Assembly: GCF_014529625.1 (NCBI RefSeq)
Contig: NZ_CP076039.1
Coordinates: forward strand, 620,001 to 684,000
Length of the DNA stretch: 64,000 nucleotides
From: Candidatus Pelagisphaera phototrophica
Lineage (GTDB): Bacteria; Verrucomicrobiota; Verrucomicrobiia; Opitutales; Opitutaceae
Direction of reading: 5' to 3'
Below are positions 40,444 to 50,970 of the stretch, one piece after another (the first letter of the stretch is position 1; every line of letters begins with the position of its first letter). Position numbers and translations under genes: made by a program. The notes beneath the pieces are model-generated. The model ran no database searches. It saw only the letters and a list, made by a program, of their open reading frames with translations, and was not told the origin of the DNA.

Positions 40444-42153
40444 TTACAGTATTTCAAGAGCCATCAGCGTCTTGTCGTCTTGAGCAGACCCACCTTGGGA
40501 ATGAGCGTCGACGACGGAAAGGGCATTTTCGGGGACGGCTTCTATTCCTTCCTGCCAGATTTCAGGAAGTCTTTTCGAGAATCCATTGATTCCTAGCATC
40601 TCTCCTGATTGGTTTTCTACCTCGTAGATACCGTCTGTTATGAAAACGATTCGGTCTTTGGCCCCCAGTTGGATCAATCGTTCATCGTAGACATCATCAG
40701 GATTGATGCCGAGCGGCACGCCTTCCGAACAGATCTCTTCTGGTCCATGTAATCCGTTTCTAGAAAGAAATGCGGGGCAATGCCCGGCACTCGCGAGCTT
40801 TAGCCGATAGTCATCATAGGAGTAATAGGCGACTTGGGCAGTGATGAACATGTTCAAGTGCCCGAGCTCTTCATAGATTTGCTTGTTAGTTTGGGACAAA
40901 AGCCAACCCGGGGTTTCCGCCAAGTTTAGCCGCGAGCGGATCGCCGTCCTGAAAATGGTAGCCAGCAATGCTGCGGGAACGCCTTTTCCCATCACGTCGG
41001 CGATGACAAGAAGTAGTCCGCGTCCCTTTATTTCAATGGCGTCTATGTAGTCACCGCCTACAGCCAAAGCTGTAACACATTTGCCAGTTAAACGAAAGTG
41101 TTCGTTGCTCGGAAATTTCGACGGTAGAAGGGACTGTTGGATTTCCGCTGCGATCTCTAGTTCTGTTTTTGAGCGAGCGTGCTCCTTTTTTTGATTAATG
41201 GTAGATGCGTTTTCGATTGCAATAGCTAGAAATCTAGAAATTGCACGGGTGAGTCTTGCAATCCTAGTCTCGAGCTGAATCGCATCCTGTTTCGGCATTT
41301 GTAAAGAGATTATACCTACGAATTCGTCTTGGTATGAAATTGGGACCAGTAGAGCGCTGTCGGACACTGAATAGAGAGGATCCGATCTAGCGAATTGGGT
41401 GCAGTCTACGATGATCTGTTCACGATGGGTGCGGAGAGCTTGAACGATCGAGATAGAGTGGTTACTTGTCAGCTCGAAGCGTTGTTCTTTGTGATCGAGT
41501 GGATTTATCAGGTGCCCTTTTTGCAAGACCCAGACTGCAGCATGAGGGATGTTAAAGACAGATTGGAGTCTGGCGAGACTGCTTGAAACCGTCTCAGCTA
41601 GCCAGGGCTCCCGACTAAGATCTTCGGCGAATCCTTGCAGGGCATCAAGTTCACTGTAGCTTTGACTGAGATCGTTTGTGGTGCTTTGCAGGGTTTCATA
41701 TAGCTCTTGAATCTTAGCGATAGGGCTTTTCGGACGATGCAAAGTTTTCATGAGAACCAACTTGTGCCCATACTGCGTTTTATAGTGAACCGCGGAATCG
41801 AAAATCGATTCAATGAGAAAGCACCCTCGACCCGATTCACTCAGAGGGTCGTCTGGAAGCCTAGCGGCCTTTGGTAGATGTTTAAAGTTTCCGGGGTCTT
41901 CGATTTCGATAGTTAGTTGCTCCTCCTCCCATTGCCACATGACCTTTACGGACTTAGGGCGAAATCCTCGACAGCCATGTTCAATCGCATTGTTTAACGC
42001 CTCGCAGAAACCTAGTTCGATGGCTGGCCAAATAGTGGTGTCGATCAAACGTAGTTCGCAGAATTCCCTAAGATGTTCTGCTACGCTGGATACGAAGCTC
42101 AATTCTCCCGGAACTTCGCAGTATGAGATATTTTGGTGTTTTAGCTCCTCCAT
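40444..42153 (-). CDS. fused RsbW-type kinase / GAF / SpoIIE-type phosphatase
   Basis: A partner-switching regulator with both opposing activities on one chain. Residues 1-140 are an anti-sigma-type GHKL kinase: N-box EALNNAIEHG (51-60), IEDPG (84-88), GRGCFLIESIFD (108-119). A helical linker and a GAF-like sensor domain follow (to about 320; HAAVWVLQKG, VPISYQDEFVGIISLQMP). The C-terminal PP2C phosphatase has AVGGDYIDA, IADVMGKGVPAALLA, ITDGIYEVE and DDKTLMALE, the metal-binding aspartates included. Targets would be phosphoserines on STAS proteins, one of which (44825) is divergently encoded nearby. It starts three bases after the stop of the upstream gene. Confidence 0.85.
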   Translation of the reverse strand: MEELKHQNISYCEVPGELSFVSSVAEHLREFCELRLIDTTIWPAIELGFCEALNNAIEHGCRGFRPKSVKVMWQWEEEQLTIEIEDPGNFKHLPKAARLPDDPLSESGRGCFLIESIFDSAVHYKTQYGHKLVLMKTLHRPKSPIAKIQELYETLQSTTNDLSQSYSELDALQGFAEDLSREPWLAETVSSSLARLQSVFNIPHAAVWVLQKGHLINPLDHKEQRFELTSNHSISIVQALRTHREQIIVDCTQFARSDPLYSVSDSALLVPISYQDEFVGIISLQMPKQDAIQLETRIARLTRAISRFLAIAIENASTINQKKEHARSKTELEIAAEIQQSLLPSKFPSNEHFRLTGKCVTALAVGGDYIDAIEIKGRGLLLVIADVMGKGVPAALLATIFRTAIRSRLNLAETPGWLLSQTNKQIYEELGHLNMFITAQVAYYSYDDYRLKLASAGHCPAFLSRNGLHGPEEICSEGVPLGINPDDVYDERLIQLGAKDRIVFITDGIYEVENQSGEMLGINGFSKRLPEIWQEGIEAVPENALSVVDAHSQGGSAQDDKTLMALEIL

Positions 42154-42156
42154 GGT

Positions 42157-43335
42157 TCATACGGATCGTTTGAACGCGAGTCGCCAAAAATTGTTCCGAA
42201 TAAGGTTGATGATATTCTTGTCTCTGCCGAGAGCTTGATACGAAGCGTGCACCCACTCATTGGGATCGTCTGCACTATGGCAATCGTGGAGGTCGGACAA
42301 CGAGAGAAAGCCAGGGGAAACTTCTTTAAGCCTTTGTTCCAATTCCTGGTCCTCTTTGATTCTCCATTCTATAGGCCGGGGAAGAATGCCGATCAAACGC
42401 ATCCGTCCCTTGAACACTTCCTTTAGCCAATGCCAACGACGAGTGAGAAGGCACCCGTTGTTCCCTGTTTTAAGAGCAAGGGTGCCACCTTTCCCGTCAT
42501 GAGCCTCAATTGTGGTCCAGTCGATTTGGGAAAGAGCAACGACGGGAGCGGCGAGTGTAAAAAGCAGGATCGCGAAAAGGCGCTCGATCAGGGGGGCGTT
42601 ACGAATGCGGCTGCCTAGGTCGCTCAGAATGAATGCGTCCGAAATATTTACGCGACAACCTCTTTTAATATCAATTAGCAGCCCACCATCGGCTGCGACC
42701 TGATCAAGTTCGGTGTTGCGCCCCACCATGGTCCCCGGGAGTAAAACGGTATCTCGGACGATAGCATTGTCGTCGACTATGGTATTTTCCCCGATGCAAG
42801 CGTTGGGTCCGATGACGGCTTGCGAGCCAATATCGCATTTACCTTGAATCCAAAAAGGAGGCATCAATTTGGCACTCGGATGGATTCGAGTTTGAGGGCC
42901 CACCCATCCTCCAGGACAAACGGATGTTTCGATGCGAAGCTCGTACTCCTCAATGTGTTTTACCCAATTCTTGTTTAGTTTTAGCCAATGTCGTAAGAGG
43001 TCGGAAGTTGTCGCGAGGCTTGTCTGGACTTTATTTTCACGAGGCAGTCCAATAACGGGAATAGCGTCATTCGGCGCTTTTTCATCCGACTGAATAGGAA
43101 TTACGGTTACGGTGCGTGACCAATAGGCTCCTCCATTTAGGTAGTCTCTAACAACCGTCGGTCGATCAGAAACATATACCTCGATATTTTCGATATTCTC
43201 GTCGACGGACCGATCCATCCAATGGGCGATAAATGGCTGGTTCCCAACCGGCCAGAGGCAAAAGGGTTGTGGGTTTTTCCAAAGATCGTCCAGTTCCCCC
43301 CAATCCGGAATTAGTAGTTTCCATTTTTGCTTCAT
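42157..43335 (-). CDS. nucleotidyltransferase-like / hexapeptide / sugar-transferase-like fusion
   Basis: The 392-residue protein has three parts. Residues 1-130 follow the layout of sugar nucleotidyltransferases (CLWPVGNQPFIAHWMD; IEVYVSDRPTVVRDYL) but lack the catalytic GGxGTRL. Residues 145-235 are a left-handed beta helix (IGSQAVIGPNACIGENTIVDDNA-type repeats). Residues 247-349 mirror a bacterial sugar transferase: a membrane hairpin (ERLFAILLFTLAAPVVAL), KGRMRLIGILPRP in place of GDMSIVGPRP, and SPGFLSLSDL in place of PGLTCFWQV, with the catalytic middle shortened. Both ends thus look inactive; a scaffold or regulatory role is inferred. Position between the true sugar transferase and the phosphatase gene. 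Confidence 0.7.
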   Translation of the reverse strand: MKQKWKLLIPDWGELDDLWKNPQPFCLWPVGNQPFIAHWMDRSVDENIENIEVYVSDRPTVVRDYLNGGAYWSRTVTVIPIQSDEKAPNDAIPVIGLPRENKVQTSLATTSDLLRHWLKLNKNWVKHIEEYELRIETSVCPGGWVGPQTRIHPSAKLMPPFWIQGKCDIGSQAVIGPNACIGENTIVDDNAIVRDTVLLPGTMVGRNTELDQVAADGGLLIDIKRGCRVNISDAFILSDLGSRIRNAPLIERLFAILLFTLAAPVVALSQIDWTTIEAHDGKGGTLALKTGNNGCLLTRRWHWLKEVFKGRMRLIGILPRPIEWRIKEDQELEQRLKEVSPGFLSLSDLHDCHSADDPNEWVHASYQALGRDKNIINLIRNNFWRLAFKRSV

Positions 43336-43353
43336 TTCTCGATAGGGAGTCGT

Positions 43354-44088
43354 CTAGTAAGCGCCTTTGCCGAGGAGTACGGCTGGAATGGTCAAAAAGA
43401 GTAGTTTGATATCGAGCCAGATGCTGCTAGACTGGATGTATTCGATGTCGAGCCGAACCTGATTTTCAAAATCGAGATCCGCTCTTCCACCGACTTGCCA
43501 AAAACAGGTTAGACCCGGTTTTGCCAGAAGGCGTTTGCGTGCTTCCAAAGTGTAGTCTGCGACCTCGGCTGGGACAACTGGACGAGGTCCCACGATCGAC
43601 ATATCGCCAAGAAACACGTTCCAGAACTGGGGGAGCTCATCGACCGAATACTTTCGGATAAAACGCCCGATCCGCGTAATTCTTGGATCGCCTTTCAGTT
43701 TTATCTCAATGGTATCTTTCGCCTCTTGTTGTTCGATCATTCGCTTGGCCACCTTTTCGGCGTCCGGCACCATGGACCTGAATTTCCAGATCATGAATGA
43801 CTGCCCTTTGAGTCCGATTCGTTGTTGAGTGAAGAATACTGGCCCTTTGTCTTCCAGTTTTATAAGGGCAGCCGTGACGCCGAAAATGGGAGAAAGGGCC
43901 ACTAGAGCGAAACCAGAAATCAGGATATCGAAAATCCGTTTGAGGGTGATTGTCGCTCCGATTACAAAAGCCCAAGTAAAGCGTTTCAGTCTAGCTCTCG
44001 TTTTTAGACCTACCTTGCCGGAGACGGTGGCGGCTTTGGCCCAATATTCGGCAAGCTCTGTGTCTGATTCATTTGGGATTTTTTGCAT
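43354..44088 (-). CDS. undecaprenyl-phosphate sugar phosphotransferase (bacterial sugar transferase)
   Basis: It transfers a sugar 1-phosphate from a nucleotide sugar to undecaprenyl phosphate, the first step of exopolysaccharide or O-antigen assembly at the inner membrane. About 244 residues: membrane hairpin LKRIFDILISGFALVALSPIF (residues 49-69), GPVFFTQQRIGLKG, WKFRSM (101-106), DELPQFWNVFLGDMS (150-164), VGPRP and PGLTCFWQVGGR. The single-hairpin form is like the C-terminal half of WcaJ/WbaP. I chose ATG 44088; the frame extends to 44199, but then it would overlap the upstream gene by over 130 bases. With this start the overlap is 20 bases. Confidence 0.9.
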   Translation of the reverse strand: MQKIPNESDTELAEYWAKAATVSGKVGLKTRARLKRFTWAFVIGATITLKRIFDILISGFALVALSPIFGVTAALIKLEDKGPVFFTQQRIGLKGQSFMIWKFRSMVPDAEKVAKRMIEQQEAKDTIEIKLKGDPRITRIGRFIRKYSVDELPQFWNVFLGDMSIVGPRPVVPAEVADYTLEARKRLLAKPGLTCFWQVGGRADLDFENQVRLDIEYIQSSSIWLDIKLLFLTIPAVLLGKGAY

Positions 44089-44704
44089 TTTTGGCGAGTC
44101 TTCTTCGTAGATCGGCCAAAAACATTGATTCAAAAGCGGTATCTTCTTCTGAGTTCCAGATAAAATCAGCGTGTTGCAGGGAGGGTTCGACGTGCTCATG
44201 GTGCATCGGAAGGGTTTGCTGGCTCCAACTCGCGCGAATTTGGTCCGCAGTATAGCCCCTTTCCTTAGTATCTCTTTTCAGTCTTCGCTCAAGGCGGGTC
44301 TCTGAATCTACATTGATGTAGAGTTTGAAATGCAGGAGGTTGCGTATCTCTGGCCAGCATAGAACGAACAGTCCTTCCAATATGATGAGCGGACTAGGGA
44401 CGAGAATATTGCCAGAGAGCAGCCGACGAAAGTTGATATAAGAGTAGTCAGGCGCCTCCACCTCGATACCTTGGTTGAGACAATTGAGGTGGTGATGAAG
44501 TAGTGTGTGTTCGACCGAGTTAGGGTGGTCGAAATTGGTTTTCTTGGCCTGTTCTAGGCTAATGCCTGAGAGATCACGGTAGTACCAATCTTGTTCGATA
44601 ACAGTCGATTCCTCGGGAAACGCAGATTGAATACGACGGGCAAATCGTGACTTCCCAGAGCCACTGCCGCCTGAAATACCGATTATGATAGGCACTCTAT
44701 ACAC
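44069..44704 (-). CDS. uridine kinase-like P-loop kinase
   Basis: It resembles uridine/cytidine kinase (Udk), which phosphorylates uridine with GTP or ATP. The 211-residue protein has the P-loop GISGGSGSGKS (residues 9-19), VIEQDWYYRDLS with the catalytic Asp, NFDHPNSVE, IILEGLFVL and RRLKRDTKERGYTADQI, the usual order. The family is broad and includes phosphoribulokinase-like members, so the substrate could be uridine or another small molecule. As first gene of the operon with the sugar transferase, a role in supplying UDP-sugars is plausible but inferred. Confidence 0.8.
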   Translation of the reverse strand: MYRVPIIIGISGGSGSGKSRFARRIQSAFPEESTVIEQDWYYRDLSGISLEQAKKTNFDHPNSVEHTLLHHHLNCLNQGIEVEAPDYSYINFRRLLSGNILVPSPLIILEGLFVLCWPEIRNLLHFKLYINVDSETRLERRLKRDTKERGYTADQIRASWSQQTLPMHHEHVEPSLQHADFIWNSEEDTAFESMFLADLRRRLAKNAKNPK

Positions 44705-44824
44705 TCTTTTTCTCTTATTTTCTCTCGTTGCGATTCAAGGCTCGTGGCCAAAATGTCGTAAGAAAGAAGAAGCTGAGCCGGCCATTAGGCGGCGAGCAAC
44801 GAACAATCCCAAATTCCTACAAAC

Positions 44825-45139
44825 ATGAGTACAGTAATTGATGGTCATCTGGACAACGGCATTTTGCGTGTCAAATTAGATGTAAATCGTTTGGATGCCT
44901 TTGCCGCTCGCGATTTCAAGAAGCAAGTCGACCTAATTTGGTCAAAGGACGTTAAACAGGTTGAATTGGATTTCAAGCAGGTTGGTTTCATCGACAGCTC
45001 TGGAGTGGGGGCGTTGCTAGGAGTTTACAAGCGGCTCACGAACGCAGATGGGCAGGTTTGCCTGACGAGTGTCCAAGCGCCGGTCCAATCTGTCATAGAG
45101 CTACTACGCTTGCATCGAATTTTTAAAATAGAAAATTGA
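44825..45139 (+). CDS. STAS-domain anti-sigma factor antagonist
   Basis: It is a single STAS domain like SpoIIAA/RsbV: 104 residues, with the phosphorylatable serine in FIDSSGVGALLGVYKRL (about residues 56-72). When dephosphorylated, such proteins bind and sequester the kinase/anti-sigma partner. The gene is divergent from the operon that encodes the RsbW-SpoIIE fusion, which is the obvious partner. ATG start without a clear ribosome binding site. A hybrid kinase gene follows 266 bases downstream on the same strand. Confidence 0.88.
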   Translation: MSTVIDGHLDNGILRVKLDVNRLDAFAARDFKKQVDLIWSKDVKQVELDFKQVGFIDSSGVGALLGVYKRLTNADGQVCLTSVQAPVQSVIELLRLHRIFKIEN

Positions 45140-45405
45140 GAAGGCGTAATCGCCGCTACTGGGCGGTCGCTATCGTATTCACTTGATCGATGTCAGGCTT
45201 CAATTGGAGCACTGTTTTTCGGTTGCACTCGCTCTTCTTTGAGAGCGTCTGCTCGTTCTTAACGAGCGATTTCAATTATAGTTTCGAGAGGGAGAGTTCT
45301 CGGGGCGATTTTTTGGAAGGATTGGGTAAAAGCACCCAAAAGAGCTCTCGTCCGAGGCAGGGCTGCCGATAAGCTAAGTGGCTCAACTTATTATTGCTGC
45401 ACGCT

Positions 45406-48400
45406 ATGAATCCCACTGGTTTGTTCAAAGACATATTCCTCAAATCTCCCTATGCTCAGATTATTTCGAGCAATGGTCTCATCCAGATGGCGAATCGAAC
45501 GGCAGTAGAGTTATTGGTTCGCAGTTCAGATGTCGATTCTCTCAAGGACACTCCGATGGAGGCCTACTTTAGAAATTGGGAGAAAGCCCTTCAGGAAAAC
45601 GAAGGTACCACGTCGTTGACCTTGGCTTCGCCCACTGAAAAAGGCCCATATGCGTGTGAAGCCCTAGCGTCAAAAATGGGTGAAGGTGAAGTTTTGTGGA
45701 ATCTGCGTCCGATTGGATCTGGAATTGAATCAAGCGGTGCCGACCGGGAGTCGGCTCTAAAGGTGGCTCTTGATCGATCGACAGACGGGATCGTCTGCTT
45801 ATCGCAAGACCTATCTAGTGAAGATCAGACATCAAATTGGCTTGTCCGTTTCGCTAATCGCGCTTCCCGCGAGCTTATTGGAATCGAACGCTCAAATATT
45901 GTGGGCAGAGCATTAAGGGAAGTGTCTTCAGTTTACGACGTTCTCAAAATTGACGAGCTCATCTCGAATATTAAGAATACTCAAAAGCCGGCAAGTAAAG
46001 AGCTCGCATTTGAGTTACAAGGCGAGTTGAAAACGGTTGTTCTTTCGGCCCAGAAAACGGATCGTTCTGAGTACATTTTAGTTGTTGAAGACGTCACCAA
46101 GGCGCGGCGGGTCGAGCAGGAGCTGGAAAGCAGTTCCAATGAGTTGGAGCGTTTGAGTGACCAAGTACCTGGGGTCTACTTTCATTTGAAGATTAACCAA
46201 GACGGTGATCCGTCCTTCCCGTTTATCAGCGAGAAGATTAAAGACCTTCTAGGAGTCGAAGCGCAAGATGTAATGAAGGATGCCTCTATCGCCATGGGGG
46301 CCGTATTCATCGAGGACTTGGAGCGGGTATATGAAAGCTTGGCAGTATCTTCGAAGAATCTTAATCCGCTCTATTTAGAATATCGAGTTAACGGTCCTAA
46401 TGGAAAGCAGAAATGGGTATCAACTAAAGCGATACCGGAAAAGCGTGGTGACGAGACGATTATATGGTACGGAATTTTTGAGGACGTTACCTTAAGGAAA
46501 GAATCCGAAGAGCGCCTTAGAATGGTATCTGCTGCCGTTGACGTCTCTAGCGACTTCATCCTGATGATGTCGACCGAAGGAAACGGCATCTACCATAACA
46601 ACTCCTTCACCAGCGTTCTTGGATATGACTCAGTCGACCAGTTGAACAATTCCGGTGGAGCAGTGGCTCTATTTGAAGATCAAGGCCTGTTTGAGAAAAT
46701 CCTACAAGAGACTCAGGAATATGGTCATTGGCAGGGAGATGTGCAGATGGCTACGGAGTCAAGTAGAGTGCTTGATGTCTACTTTAGAACAGTTGCCGTG
46801 CGCGATGACAAAGGACGGATTACCGCAATCGTTGCCACTGGTACTGATGTCACTCACAACAAACGGCGCCAGAATTTGTTGAAGCGCTACAACTCCGTAT
46901 TGAAAGCACAATCCGAGGCATCGACGGATGGAATTCTGGTAGTAAATGAACGAGGTATCGTATCGAACTACAACAAGCGTTTTCACGAAATCTGGTCGCT
47001 TTCTCCAAGTGTTATGGACGCGGGAGACCCTGCGAAAATCTGGGAGACCGCATCGGAACTGATGCCTGAACCTCAAGCGTTCTTGGATAAGGCGAATTCA
47101 ATTTCTGCGAGTGAAACCGAGACAGTAAAAGATCTGCTCGAGTTGAACGACGGAAGAATTTTTGAGCAAGCTTCCTTCCCGATATGCTCACCTCTAGGTG
47201 AATCGTATGGAAGGGTTTGGTTCTTTCATGAGATAACGGAGCAGAAACGTTCTGAAGAGCAGCTAAGGGCCGCAATGCGGCAGGCAGAAGAGGCGAACGA
47301 GGCTAAGAGTTATTTTCTCGCCAACATGAGCCATGAAATTCGGACTCCGATGAATGGCATCATCGGTATGACCGGCTTGGTAAGTGACACGGACCTTGAT
47401 CGCGAGCAGCGCGAATGCGTGGATACAATCCGTGCCAGTAGCGAGGCGTTGCTTGTCGTTATAAATGACATTCTAGACTTTTCGAAGATCGAATCCGGAA
47501 AACTCGAGATCGAGAGTACCCTCTTTGACCTTCGCGATTGTGTAGAGGAGGCAGTTGATACTCTCGCCTTACAGGCGACCGAAAAAGGTTTGGACATCGC
47601 ATATGTGATCGACAAGTCGATGGAAACTACGCTGCTCGGAGACCCTACGCGTTTACGGCAAGTTGTGATGAACCTGATTGGCAATGCGGTAAAGTTTACG
47701 GGAAAAGGGGGCGTTTGTGTTCGAGTTTCCCTTGTGGAAAAGAGCGATGATCGTTTGAAGGCCCAGTTCTCAATACGTGATACGGGAATTGGTATTCCTG
47801 CGGATAGAGTAGATACACTCTTCGATTCGTTTAGTCAGGTGGATGCCTCAACTACTAGAAAGTATGGTGGCACCGGTCTTGGTTTGTCGATCAGCAAGAA
47901 CCTGGCCGAGTTAATGGGTGGATCGATGTGGGTGGAGAGCGCAGTAGAGGAGGGGTCGACGTTCCACTTCACGGTTGAGTTCCGCAAATCTGCTATTGAA
48001 TCGCTTCCTGCAGGAACGAAGACTGTGGGCGAATTTGAGGGAAAGAATGCTTTGATTGTTGAGCACAACGCATTCAGTCGAGAGTCCTTGAGGAGCCAGG
48101 TTGAACACCTTGGATTAGAATCGATTGGTCTGGAGTCGTTGGCTGATCTTGAGAATATTGAAGTTGAGTCTTCGAATCTGCTTCTGGCTTATGTGGAATC
48201 GGGTATCGATGGATTAGATACGAATGAATTAGTTGAAAGCGTTCGAAAAGGCACAGGGAATTCGAATTTGCCTGTAGTGATATCTGGTCCGTTGGGGAGT
48301 CTTCATGCTGGCAGCGGTGTGTCTGGCAAGGTGTTGTCACAATTAAAGCCTTGTAAGCTTGCGAATACGAAACGCAATCTCATGGATTCCGTAGGGTTAG

Positions 48401-48855
48401 CGGAGGAGACGGTAAAAAAGACCGAGAAAACTTCTGAGAAACTAGGAGAGAGAATGCCGATTTCTATCTTGCTTGCTGAGGATAATATCGTAAACCAGAA
48501 GGTTGCAACTAGGTTGTTTAAGAAAATTGGTTACAAGATTGAAATGGCGAATAACGGCCTTGAAGCGATAAAGGCTCTTGAGCAGAGTTCTTATGACCTT
48601 GTATTCATGGATATTCAAATGCCGGAAATGGACGGTCTTGAAGCTACGAGGCAAATAATCGCCAAGTGGGGTGATGCGAGACCGAGAATTGTTGCGCTGA
48701 CCGCAAACGCTATGCGAGAAGATAAAGAGAAGTGCTACGAAGCTGGGATGGACGACTACCTGACCAAGCCGTTTAAGCCCATTGAGCTAGAAGAAGCCAT
48801 TGAGAGTACTTACGAACGTCTAGAATCAAAGGGCGGGTCAACTCCAACCTCTTAA
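45406..48855 (+). CDS. hybrid histidine kinase with several PAS domains and two receiver domains
   Basis: A large cytoplasmic sensor kinase of about 1149 residues, without membrane segments. PAS-type sensor repeats fill the first ~600 residues (SPYAQIISSNGLIQ; PFISEKIKDLLGVEAQDV; NNSFTSVLGYDSV; GIVSNYNKRFHEIW). The kinase core follows: phosphoacceptor in FLANMSHEIRTPMNG (His near 643), N-box NLIGNAVKFTG, DTGIGIPADRV and GTGLGLSISKNLAEL. The first receiver-like domain (ALIVEHNAFSRESL, about 878-990) lacks the phosphoacceptor pattern; the second (ISILLAEDNIVNQKV; LVFMDIQMPEMDG, about 1018-1140) is complete. The frame extends to a TTG at 45394. Confidence 0.92.
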   Translation: MNPTGLFKDIFLKSPYAQIISSNGLIQMANRTAVELLVRSSDVDSLKDTPMEAYFRNWEKALQENEGTTSLTLASPTEKGPYACEALASKMGEGEVLWNLRPIGSGIESSGADRESALKVALDRSTDGIVCLSQDLSSEDQTSNWLVRFANRASRELIGIERSNIVGRALREVSSVYDVLKIDELISNIKNTQKPASKELAFELQGELKTVVLSAQKTDRSEYILVVEDVTKARRVEQELESSSNELERLSDQVPGVYFHLKINQDGDPSFPFISEKIKDLLGVEAQDVMKDASIAMGAVFIEDLERVYESLAVSSKNLNPLYLEYRVNGPNGKQKWVSTKAIPEKRGDETIIWYGIFEDVTLRKESEERLRMVSAAVDVSSDFILMMSTEGNGIYHNNSFTSVLGYDSVDQLNNSGGAVALFEDQGLFEKILQETQEYGHWQGDVQMATESSRVLDVYFRTVAVRDDKGRITAIVATGTDVTHNKRRQNLLKRYNSVLKAQSEASTDGILVVNERGIVSNYNKRFHEIWSLSPSVMDAGDPAKIWETASELMPEPQAFLDKANSISASETETVKDLLELNDGRIFEQASFPICSPLGESYGRVWFFHEITEQKRSEEQLRAAMRQAEEANEAKSYFLANMSHEIRTPMNGIIGMTGLVSDTDLDREQRECVDTIRASSEALLVVINDILDFSKIESGKLEIESTLFDLRDCVEEAVDTLALQATEKGLDIAYVIDKSMETTLLGDPTRLRQVVMNLIGNAVKFTGKGGVCVRVSLVEKSDDRLKAQFSIRDTGIGIPADRVDTLFDSFSQVDASTTRKYGGTGLGLSISKNLAELMGGSMWVESAVEEGSTFHFTVEFRKSAIESLPAGTKTVGEFEGKNALIVEHNAFSRESLRSQVEHLGLESIGLESLADLENIEVESSNLLLAYVESGIDGLDTNELVESVRKGTGNSNLPVVISGPLGSLHAGSGVSGKVLSQLKPCKLANTKRNLMDSVGLAEETVKKTEKTSEKLGERMPISILLAEDNIVNQKVATRLFKKIGYKIEMANNGLEAIKALEQSSYDLVFMDIQMPEMDGLEATRQIIAKWGDARPRIVALTANAMREDKEKCYEAGMDDYLTKPFKPIELEEAIESTYERLESKGGSTPTS

Positions 48856-48969: not shown

Positions 48970-50970
48970 ATGCTAGATTCTAGTCCAAAAGGAGAGTCAG
49001 ATTGCTACAAGCGAGCGAAGCGTTCGCTCGGTTTAATTCTGGAAAAGGGAGAAGAACTGAAATTTGATCACGTGGTGGAGCCAGAAGTAACCATAGTAAT
49101 CGCTTCGCGTAACCCAGCTCCATTCCTATTTCGTTGCCTAGAGGCGCTTTGCCTTTCGGAATCCGTCCGGATGGAGGTTGTAGTAGTCGTTGAGTCGAGC
49201 CCTCGTGAGTTGATTGCCCTTTTGCTCGATCGATTAAAGACCGTTGTGAAGGTGCGTTGTCCGGAAATCGTAAGCTACTCTGACGCTTGGAATCAGGGCG
49301 CGAATGTAGCGCGAAGTGCAAATATCATTTTTTTGAAGGACGACGTGTGCGTAAGGAAGGATGCGATTTGCGCGACACTGAACGCCTTGAATAATGATGG
49401 CGGGGTGGGAGCCGTTGGAGCCATGTTGCTGGACGGAGATGGAGTCCTCATTGAGTCGGGATCGCTTTTGAATTCCAGTGGAATTTGCCGATCAGTAGGA
49501 AGAGGCTGGAATCCGGACGACTATCGTGTGCAGTACAAAAGAGATGTAGCGTTTTGCTCAGGAGCCTACTTGGGAATTACAAAAGAGACTTTTCAGTCGA
49601 TCGGAGGATTCGATGAGTCTTTCTTGGATGAGTACTACGAAGACGTTGACCTATGCTTGAGGCTCAATCGTGCTGGGAAGAGGACCGTTTACGATCCTTG
49701 CAGTGTAGCGACCAGAAATCTGGAGTACCGAGACTCTTGGGAAAAGGCCGCTAAATTGATGGCGGCAAATAGAAATAGGCTTTTGTTGATTCGCGAGTTA
49801 GAGCTCGCTAGTTTCCCCTCTCAAAGTGATTTCGAATTAGATACGGTTCATGAGTGTGCGAGAGGGCAGCGGATACTTTGGGTTGAAGACGCTCCTCCTT
49901 TCGCCCACATGGGAGCAGGGTTTCCCAGGACGAAGGAAATGCTGCGGACTCTGATTGAACTGGGGCATTCCGTAACTCTGCTTCCCACTTTTATTACGAC
50001 GAGCGACTTTATGGATGTGTACAAAGATACACCTCGAGAAGTTGAAGTGGCCTTAGGAGTTGGGGCGGAAGGTTTCGATGAATTTTGGCAGAGAAAATGG
50101 AAAGAGTATGATACTGTCATCATTTCGCGACCCAATAATCTTAATTCTATTGGTCGCATAATTGAAGATACAAAAAGCAAAAGACCAGACTTGCGTTTGA
50201 TATACGACGCCGAGGCTATTTTCGCTAACCGAGAGATAAACGAGGCGCTATACAATGGGGAACCGTTTTCCGAGTCGGAAGAGAGACAACTGCTAAAAGC
50301 GGAATTGAAGCTGGCGGTGATTGCGGATGTAATACTATCGATATCCGAGCACGAACGAAAGCAATTTGCTTCACTGGGATTCTCCAAGGTGATCATGCTT
50401 AGGCATCACTCGACAATTGAGCCAGCGGTTAGGTCATTTGCAGAGAGAGAAGGGATACTTTTTGTGGGGGCGGTTCACTCGGATTCGGCCCCAAACGCGA
50501 TAGGTTTGATTGACTTTATTGAAAATTCCCTCCCGCTAATTCGAGCAAAACTGGGGCAGGACATAAAGCTGTATTGCGCCGGCAGATACCATTCAGATGA
50601 ATTGATGAAGTATGCCTCGGATTCAGAAGTCTTTTTAGGATTCGTGGAAGACCTCAGTGAGTGGTATGAAAAATGCCGAGTGTTCATTGCACCCGCTCGG
50701 TTTGCGGCGGGTATACCTCTAAAGATCATTGAAGCCGCTTCGAAGGGTATCCCCGTTGTGGCGACTACTCTTGCAAGGAGCCAGCTTGGATGGACCGAAG
50801 AGGAGTTAATCTCGGCACATACCGCAGGGGCCTTCGCGGATGCTTGTGTTCGTGTTTATTCGGAAGAACCCTTGTGGCACCAGCTAAGAATGGGAGCATT
50901 GGCCAAAATACGGCAGGGCTACAGCCGAGAACACATCGTCGAAGCGCTGCGTTGCGCCCTGGAGTATTAG
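48970..50970 (+). CDS. two-domain glycosyltransferase (GT2 + GT4-like)
   Basis: The 666-residue protein joins a GT2-type domain (TIVIASRNPAPFLFRCLEAL, IFLKDDV in the metal-binding position, SIGGFDESFLDEYYEDVDLCLRL) and, from about residue 300, a GT4-type GT-B domain (ILWVEDAPPFAHMGAGF; ILFVGAVHSDSAPNAIG; APARFAAGIPLKIIEAASKGIPVVAT). Such fusions build surface glycans by adding two sugars. No membrane segments are visible. It is next to the hybrid kinase on the same strand, separated by 114 bases, and convergent with the HDOD gene. Confidence 0.85.
   Translation: MLDSSPKGESDCYKRAKRSLGLILEKGEELKFDHVVEPEVTIVIASRNPAPFLFRCLEALCLSESVRMEVVVVVESSPRELIALLLDRLKTVVKVRCPEIVSYSDAWNQGANVARSANIIFLKDDVCVRKDAICATLNALNNDGGVGAVGAMLLDGDGVLIESGSLLNSSGICRSVGRGWNPDDYRVQYKRDVAFCSGAYLGITKETFQSIGGFDESFLDEYYEDVDLCLRLNRAGKRTVYDPCSVATRNLEYRDSWEKAAKLMAANRNRLLLIRELELASFPSQSDFELDTVHECARGQRILWVEDAPPFAHMGAGFPRTKEMLRTLIELGHSVTLLPTFITTSDFMDVYKDTPREVEVALGVGAEGFDEFWQRKWKEYDTVIISRPNNLNSIGRIIEDTKSKRPDLRLIYDAEAIFANREINEALYNGEPFSESEERQLLKAELKLAVIADVILSISEHERKQFASLGFSKVIMLRHHSTIEPAVRSFAEREGILFVGAVHSDSAPNAIGLIDFIENSLPLIRAKLGQDIKLYCAGRYHSDELMKYASDSEVFLGFVEDLSEWYEKCRVFIAPARFAAGIPLKIIEAASKGIPVVATTLARSQLGWTEEELISAHTAGAFADACVRVYSEEPLWHQLRMGALAKIRQGYSREHIVEALRCALEY

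Follow-up and report, generated by a model that had tools for sequence, protein, structure and literature searches.

Bacterial protein switches of the RsbW/STAS type usually release a transcription factor. Positions 40444-45139 of the window, the 64,000-nucleotide stretch of the Candidatus Pelagisphaera phototrophica genome analysed here, raise the question of what such a switch acts on when its genes stand beside glycan-priming genes. The genes that the initial annotation proposed for this interval are all open where it placed them, and recomputation returned its intergenic gaps of -20, 18 and 3 bases and the 120 bases that separate the divergent STAS gene. The minus-strand run comprises a uridine kinase family gene with a GTG start (UDK; 44069-44704), a small phosphoglycosyl (sugar) transferase (PGT) of 244 aa (STR; 43354-44088), a 392-aa pseudoenzyme (NTP; 42157-43335) and a 569-aa kinase/phosphatase fusion (FUS; 40444-42153). 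The plus strand carries a single-domain STAS protein (44825-45139) and a PAS-rich hybrid histidine kinase with a C-terminal receiver (HK; 45406-48855; domain search, orthologues). Comparison with relatives places the STR start at 44088, not at the longest start, 44199, which agrees with the -20 gap of the initial annotation.

Pfam matches divide FUS into HATPase_c_2 (residues 17-134, E 1.8e-16), GAF (187-313, 8.4e-5) and SpoIIE (377-568, 3.1e-38) domains, confirming the proposed RsbW-type kinase, sensor and SpoIIE-type PP2C phosphatase on one chain; FUS is the sole HATPase_c_2 match above cut-off in the genome. Its predicted structure (mean pLDDT 67.9) matches the phosphatase domains of SpoIIE, RssB and SiaA, and also SpoIIAB. 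The RsbW N-box is present in 37 of 41 FUS alignment rows, the remaining four being partial, broken or mis-extracted (the count is from the alignment; regular expressions for FUS can match by chance), and in 46 of 49 RsbW domains near NTP at phylum loci. The metal-binding aspartates of the PP2C domain are present by Pfam, orthologue motifs and structure match. The STAS protein (Pfam, E 1.3e-16) carries a phospho-acceptor-type serine, Ser58, in a DSSG motif that recurs in all 38 Opitutales STAS rows, including broken or partial copies (L090, L097). Over all loci the serine is kept in 102 of 106 STAS rows near NTP, and two of the four exceptions (L137, L152) look like stray fragments. At the level of sequence, FUS retains the motifs of both an RsbW-type kinase and a SpoIIE-type phosphatase, and STAS retains the serine that such enzymes act on. 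STR is an ordinary small PGT of the PglC/WbaP kind (Bac_transf, E 2.7e-66); of 36 rows, 34 have the catalytic Asp-Glu of its DExPQ motif intact, and a frameshift or truncation affects the remaining two. UDK is identified by Pfam/PRK (PRK match 5.3e-31) and NF004018 (184.7 bits, cut-off 180), and its proposed membership holds in some genera and fails in others.

The initial annotation described NTP as a degenerate sugar transferase fusion, which is correct but does not cover all its parts. NTP is composed of a pseudo-nucleotidyltransferase, presumably of the GlmU/MurU type, a left-handed beta-helix of hexapeptide repeats detected by Pfam, and usually a pseudo-PGT. Compared with solved structures, a profile of 21 relatives matches the nucleotidyl transferase 4y7t at residues 18-84, hexapeptide enzymes, and the bacillosaminyl-phosphate transferase 8e37 at residues 299-378 (E 1.7e-4); profile-profile comparison with the intact PGT gives 91.6% and E 8.1e-7. 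NTP joins in one chain pieces homologous to small PGTs and nucleotidyltransferases without the catalytic motif of either: GGxGTR and DExPQ are both absent from all 36 Opitutales rows and from all 80 phylum loci, where two regular-expression matches fall in a different stretch. In contrast, DExPQ is kept in 76 of 76 PGTs neighbouring NTP at these 80 loci. Six of the 36 Opitutales rows are shorter than 300 aa, four lacking the C-terminal domain and two broken. An AlphaFold model of NTP from seven close sequences was poor (pLDDT 45) and was left unused.

Gene order in relatives, the check proposed with the initial annotation, was strongly conserved at family and phylum loci. NTP occurs in 44 of 252 family genomes (45 rows), FUS adjoins it in 38 rows, and STAS lies within 6 kb by BLAST in 36; a later profile reading finds STAS adjoining NTP in 43, the other two ending at contig ends. 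Within 5 kb of 80 phylum NTP loci are PGT at 76, STAS at 50 and RsbW at 49, the last to be read with the proviso that weak RsbW matches can be histidine kinases; the stricter, Opitutales-only profiles give 76, 49 and 43. One such weak match, 3.6 kb from PGT-NTP-STAS genes (L213), was rejected as a histidine kinase. STAS or RsbW lies at most 8 kb from NTP in 25 of 26 families; within 5 kb, 14 of the 80 loci have RsbW without STAS and 16 have neither. Neither of the genome's two other PGTs has STAS or RsbW nearby (flank of at least 2.3 kb). STAS itself changes position: it may be divergently encoded, follow NTP, or lie between NTP and PGT. Against two close relatives, dN/dS is 0.06-0.23 for FUS, NTP, PGT, UDK and STAS, evidence of purifying selection that, together with a gene set kept across genera and classes, places the module beyond chance. 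What had been called a glycan operon is better described as a small glycan-priming module than as a full glycan operon.

Losses at the locus are varied. One genome (G001) has lost NTP and truncated PGT and the fusion, with STAS and HK intact. Another (G006) has lost PGT and NTP along with the greater part of the fusion, has broken STAS and HK, and keeps UDK and the glycosyltransferase gene, a deletion that is weak support since neighbouring genes of the region decay too. Two cases were set aside: G005, whose fusion is a single gene split over two contigs, and L072, an NTP without the other parts, outside the family.

Natural gene fusions point to the output of the switch. Three genomes (G475, G612, G618) carry in-frame fusions of NTP with RsbW and two (G237, G233) fusions of NTP with STAS, each type seen in a single genus-level group; the NTP-RsbW fusions would place the kinase, too, in contact with NTP. 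Together with the lack of a SigB/F/G sigma factor, these fusions support the suggestion that the output is the pseudoenzyme and not a sigma factor. Probably the kinase/phosphatase fusion toggles STAS, which acts directly on PGT-NTP and gates glycan initiation; the partner switch would then be post-translational and operate where assembly of a lipid-linked glycan begins. Judging by their families, the FUS kinase would phosphorylate Ser58 of STAS and the FUS phosphatase would reverse this, with GAF and the neighbouring hybrid kinase setting the balance. The conserved neighbourhood and the gene fusions suggest that the output is PGT with its catalytically dead partner. NTP would occupy the place that the classical switch gives to the sigma factor; by binding RsbW, STAS or both, it would control the loading of the first sugar phosphate onto the lipid carrier by PGT. 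By analogy with SypA alone, unphosphorylated STAS is most likely the active form that promotes priming. This reading of the output draws wholly on comparative evidence, and its direction and sign are inferred.

A variant, in which STAS is a standing subunit of PGT-NTP whose activity is set by the kinase and phosphatase with no true alternation of partners, is unlikely but accounts for several observations. In five family genomes STAS adjoins PGT-NTP although the locus shows no RsbW-PP2C gene, a pattern that also favours direct gating of PGT-NTP; in G187, one of the five, the serine has become tyrosine. The NTP-STAS fusions fit this variant too. The NTP-RsbW fusions speak against it, bringing the kinase to NTP as well. 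The notion that loss of the kinase tracks loss of the STAS serine was rejected, since 17 of the 19 rows that lack an RsbW match still have the serine.

It is rather improbable that the target is some other protein, through which the switch would control transcription or a different stage in a broader polysaccharide programme, with PGT-NTP linked to it only by shared operon and timing. The tight operon spacing would suit such an arrangement, as would the STAS-fusion-REC cassettes with no PGT or NTP seen alongside in three order-level genomes (L069-L071) and in family genomes (L222-L226), which indicate that the cassette can serve other outputs away from glycan genes. SypA, encoded with SypE at the syp polysaccharide locus of Vibrio fischeri, is likewise described as working through a target stated to be unknown in the available portions of the source papers (PMC4517449, PMC10120452). 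However, the parts remain together despite changes of order and strand, and NTP is fused to both switch parts.

The genome holds 14 region-2 sigma candidates, one of them FliA. Region 3 is found in two sigma frames only, an RpoD-sized one and the flagellar FliA, which scores 234 bits for FliA/WhiG (cut-off 189.6) versus 94.5 for SigBFG; among these region-3 frames no SigB/F/G-family sigma factor was found. A classical anti-sigma switch, in which the RsbW domain holds RpoD, FliA or an ECF factor until STAS frees it and the glycan genes are merely co-regulated, is quite improbable: RsbW and SpoIIAB are anti-sigma factors, FUS matches the structure of SpoIIAB solved with sigma (1l0o) and the genome has its 14 candidates, but region 3 is so restricted, FliA sits among flagellar genes (gene names by reading), sigma-like open reading frames occur near the module at just 2 of 119 loci (phmmer, four queries, none RpoD), and the NTP-RsbW and NTP-STAS fusions are left unaccounted for. 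Mycobacterium tuberculosis Rv1364c belongs to a sigma-factor pathway. In it, as in receiver-PP2C-RsbW fusions, phosphatase and kinase share one chain (FUS structure match 3ke6), but with the phosphatase ahead of the kinase.

Among the closest known systems is SypE-SypA, whose layout, a kinase-sensor-phosphatase chain and a STAS protein beside polysaccharide genes, is present here; the module probably works in the same way. As far as the available text of the sources extends (PMC4517449, PMC10120452), the two share a one-chain kinase/phosphatase, a single-domain STAS protein with a conserved serine, a polysaccharide locus and hybrid sensor kinase input, with a sigma factor not in evidence. They differ in that SypE is a response regulator, whereas the sensory domain here is GAF, and in that the STAS gene here is tied, sometimes by fusion, to PGT and a pseudoenzyme. 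The partner-switching proteins HmpU/V/W of Nostoc also stand at a motility and polysaccharide locus, yet they are described as separate proteins, and the portions of the source available state the output of the STAS protein HmpV to be unknown and do not mention a PGT-pseudoenzyme pair (PMC8256260).

A further related system is that of Pseudomonas aeruginosa, where the PP2C domain of SiaA is one of the structural matches to FUS noted above. SiaC is STAS-like and is phosphorylated reversibly by SiaB and SiaA. According to the accessible part of the source, SiaC directly binds the enzyme SiaD, as seen in the structure of the complex, and the SiaA/B/C/D network sets biofilm formation, although SiaD is a diguanylate cyclase and not a glycan-priming PGT (PMC8457831).

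Tentatively, and with rather less confidence than direct gating itself, RsbW may alternate between STAS and NTP in a phylum-old, transcription-free gating of the committing glycan step, of which SypA and HmpV would be outlying cases. For these two, the module names a concrete candidate STAS target, PGT with its pseudoenzyme, and the natural fusions indicate which proteins to test. If true, glycan priming would join the outputs of partner switching and a pseudoenzyme would gain a role. Open-licence PMC text, searched at the level of listings, yielded no publication on a STAS-PGT link, direct pairing of the two names included, and on pseudoenzyme PGTs yielded general pseudoenzyme works only.

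On the input side stand a hybrid histidine kinase and, in relatives, receiver domains as well. Pfam found no receiver on the FUS chain, which has GAF instead; relatives carry receivers as separate proteins or on the kinase/phosphatase chain, and these would there help to set the balance. Beyond HK lies a GT2-GT4 double glycosyltransferase gene (48970-50970, plus strand; domain search) of uncertain membership, seen adjoining the module in a single genus (g1). HK, overlooked by the initial annotation, adjoins the STAS gene, is kept with it in several genera and is likely an input; its reading frame opens at a TTG at 45394, and many orthologue matches start at residue 5.

In Candidatus Pelagisphaera phototrophica, whose genome is a single 4.09-Mb contig and whose named close relatives are Opitutaceae/Opitutales MAGs, a minus-strand run from 44704 to 40444 encodes in order a uridine kinase family protein (UDK), the phosphoglycosyl transferase (PGT) STR, a degenerate 392-aa protein (NTP), and FUS, a 569-aa fusion of RsbW-type kinase, GAF and SpoIIE-type phosphatase domains. 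The spacing of -20, 18 and 3 bases given in the initial annotation is reproduced on recomputation, and Pfam backs each of its domain assignments. The plus strand carries the STAS gene, which begins 120 bases from this run, and after it the gene of a PAS hybrid histidine kinase (HK). The predicted FUS structure (mean pLDDT 67.9) matches the phosphatase domains of SpoIIE, RssB and SiaA, and also the Rv1364c RsbU-RsbW structure and SpoIIAB. RsbW kinases phosphorylate a STAS serine that SpoIIE-type phosphatases dephosphorylate; by sequence, FUS keeps the motif sets of both enzymes and STAS keeps the serine. Near HK, a single chain at 48970-50970 carries GT2 and GT4 glycosyltransferase domains; it was seen at this position only in genus g1.

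On its own, NTP matches hexapeptide repeats in Pfam. Compared with solved structures, a profile built from 21 relatives matches the nucleotidyl transferase 4y7t over residues 18-84, hexapeptide domains, GlmU-type among them, at about 135-230, and the bacillosaminyl-phosphate transferase 8e37, a small PGT (299-378, E 1.7e-4). It also matches the profile of STR, and in some relatives the sugar-transferase remnant is visible to Pfam itself (E 1.7e-5 and 9e-5). A motif search finds neither the GGxGTR nucleotidyltransferase loop nor the PGT catalytic motif DExPQ in NTP (36/36 Opitutales rows, 80/80 phylum loci); two regex matches in the phylum loci represent another conserved stretch, not a catalytic motif. 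Six of the 36 Opitutales rows have an NTP shorter than 300 aa, four without the C-terminal domain and two broken. Every one of the 76 PGTs that neighbor NTP at phylum loci has DExPQ, as do 34/36 Opitutales STR rows, the other two being frameshifted or truncated. Because its motifs are absent, the neighboring PGT motif is kept, and purifying selection acts on it (dN/dS of 0.18 with one close relative and 0.095 with another), NTP appears to be a maintained pseudoenzyme accompanying an active PGT.

Many of the relatives' genomes are draft assemblies. Among 252 family genomes, NTP, FUS and STAS are found in 44, 53 and 47, respectively (thresholds 1e-15, 1e-32 and 1e-7); NTP co-occurs with FUS in 39, and FUS with STAS in 44. 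By BLAST, FUS lies within 6 kb of NTP in 38/45 rows and STAS in 36/45. Profile reading of the remaining stretches adds STAS beside NTP in G068, G187, G199, G209, G212, G233 and G237, so that STAS adjoins NTP in 43/45 rows; the two without it (G007, G060) stop at a contig edge. Of seven NTP rows without FUS by BLAST, G058 holds a broken copy and G068 an RsbW domain running off the contig end. At the loci of G187, G090, G199 (a contig of just 5.8 kb), G237 and G233, STAS is present and no RsbW-PP2C gene is found; G233 carries the fusion elsewhere in its genome (L232).

Across the phylum, the NTP profile matches 82/387 genomes, yielding 80 loci from 78 genomes, with the remaining four (G000, G010, G016 and G022) covered by the family set. 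These loci, which are non-independent events, have PGT in 76 cases, STAS in 50, RsbW in 49 and PP2C in 42 at a distance of up to 5 kb from NTP, where weak RsbW matches may include histidine kinases, as one proved to be; profiles from Opitutales only give 76, 49, 43 and 42. Sixteen loci have neither STAS nor RsbW in this range, and 14 have RsbW but no STAS. STAS matches lie at most 2 kb from NTP in 52/65 cases, and STAS or RsbW occurs within 8 kb in 66/78 genomes and 25/26 families. In more distant groups a common order is a single-chain receiver-PP2C-RsbW protein, then PGT, STAS and NTP on the same strand; in the single-contig genome of L211, this four-gene set sits isolated between genes read as housekeeping. 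STAS-FUS-REC sets with no PGT-NTP alongside are seen at L069-L071 and L222-L226, some on short contigs. The likelihood that chance explains the neighborhood of STAS and the module is small, because the 4.09-Mb genome holds three STAS matches. STAS and RsbW are absent from the 19 kb read around its two other PGTs.

A partner switch classically frees a sigma factor. The genome has 14 sigma region-2 candidates, only two with region 3: a 579-aa frame taken to be RpoD, and FliA, located among flagellar genes (gene names by reading). Sigma-like ORFs occur near the module in 2/119 loci, as searched with four query sequences that did not include RpoD. At genome position 685325, about 1.3 kb beyond the window end and some 20 kb away from the STAS gene, a 402-aa open frame matches sigma-70 region 2; relatives of this frame are found near the module in no other loci beyond those two. 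HATPase_c_2 scores above cut-off nowhere in the genome but in FUS. Besides the module's own STAS gene, the genome has STAS matches in a 694-aa open frame and, weakly, in a 168-aa protein. The latter (L099:4595-5101, minus strand) has DSTV replacing the DSSG motif and weakly resembles RssC.

The putative output of the switch is instead the PGT-NTP pair, because PGT and NTP stay with STAS while order, strand and kinase design vary, and because each of the two switch parts occurs fused to NTP. The NTP frame continues into an RsbW domain in G475, G612 and G618 (HATPase_c_2 E-values 1.1e-15, 6.6e-16 and 5.5e-17), with STAS next, a fusion found in 3/29 searched genomes of their family. In G237 and G233 it continues into STAS (E 2.8e-13 and 1.2e-10); G233 may also make free STAS, since its frame has an ATG at the usual STAS start. 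Each half of the switch is thus joined to the pseudoenzyme in a different lineage. WecG/TagA/CpsF-type glycosyltransferase genes with two STAS domains by Pfam (L153:4204-5691, minus; L154:13306-14784, plus; L085:1120-2562, plus), none more than about 7 kb away from the module, suggest a further tie of STAS to glycan enzymes. In the open-licence literature searched, the nearest studied design is V. fischeri SypE-SypA (PMC4517449, PMC10120452), and SiaC-SiaD illustrates a protein of such a network that binds and activates an enzyme (PMC8457831). The sign of STAS action would be as in SypA, from which it is borrowed, but could be the reverse.

Genera g1, g13 and g20 have UDK as a module member; elsewhere the module recurrently neighbors genes for a GT4 glycosyltransferase, for a lone receiver domain and for a type I phosphodiesterase. 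UMP is the expected by-product of the PGT reaction, which may link UDK to the module. UDK-family genes like that at 44069-44704 also adjoin PGT in distant members at ~30% identity (L067, L091, L092, L115), and a type I phosphodiesterase/nucleotide pyrophosphatase-family protein (PF01663; L085:12304-13449 and relatives) comes after the module in many relatives. The G006 locus (L097) shows natural decay, having lost PGT, NTP and the greater part of the fusion to deletion; STAS and HK are broken, other genes of the region have decayed too, and UDK and the GT2-GT4 gene are intact.
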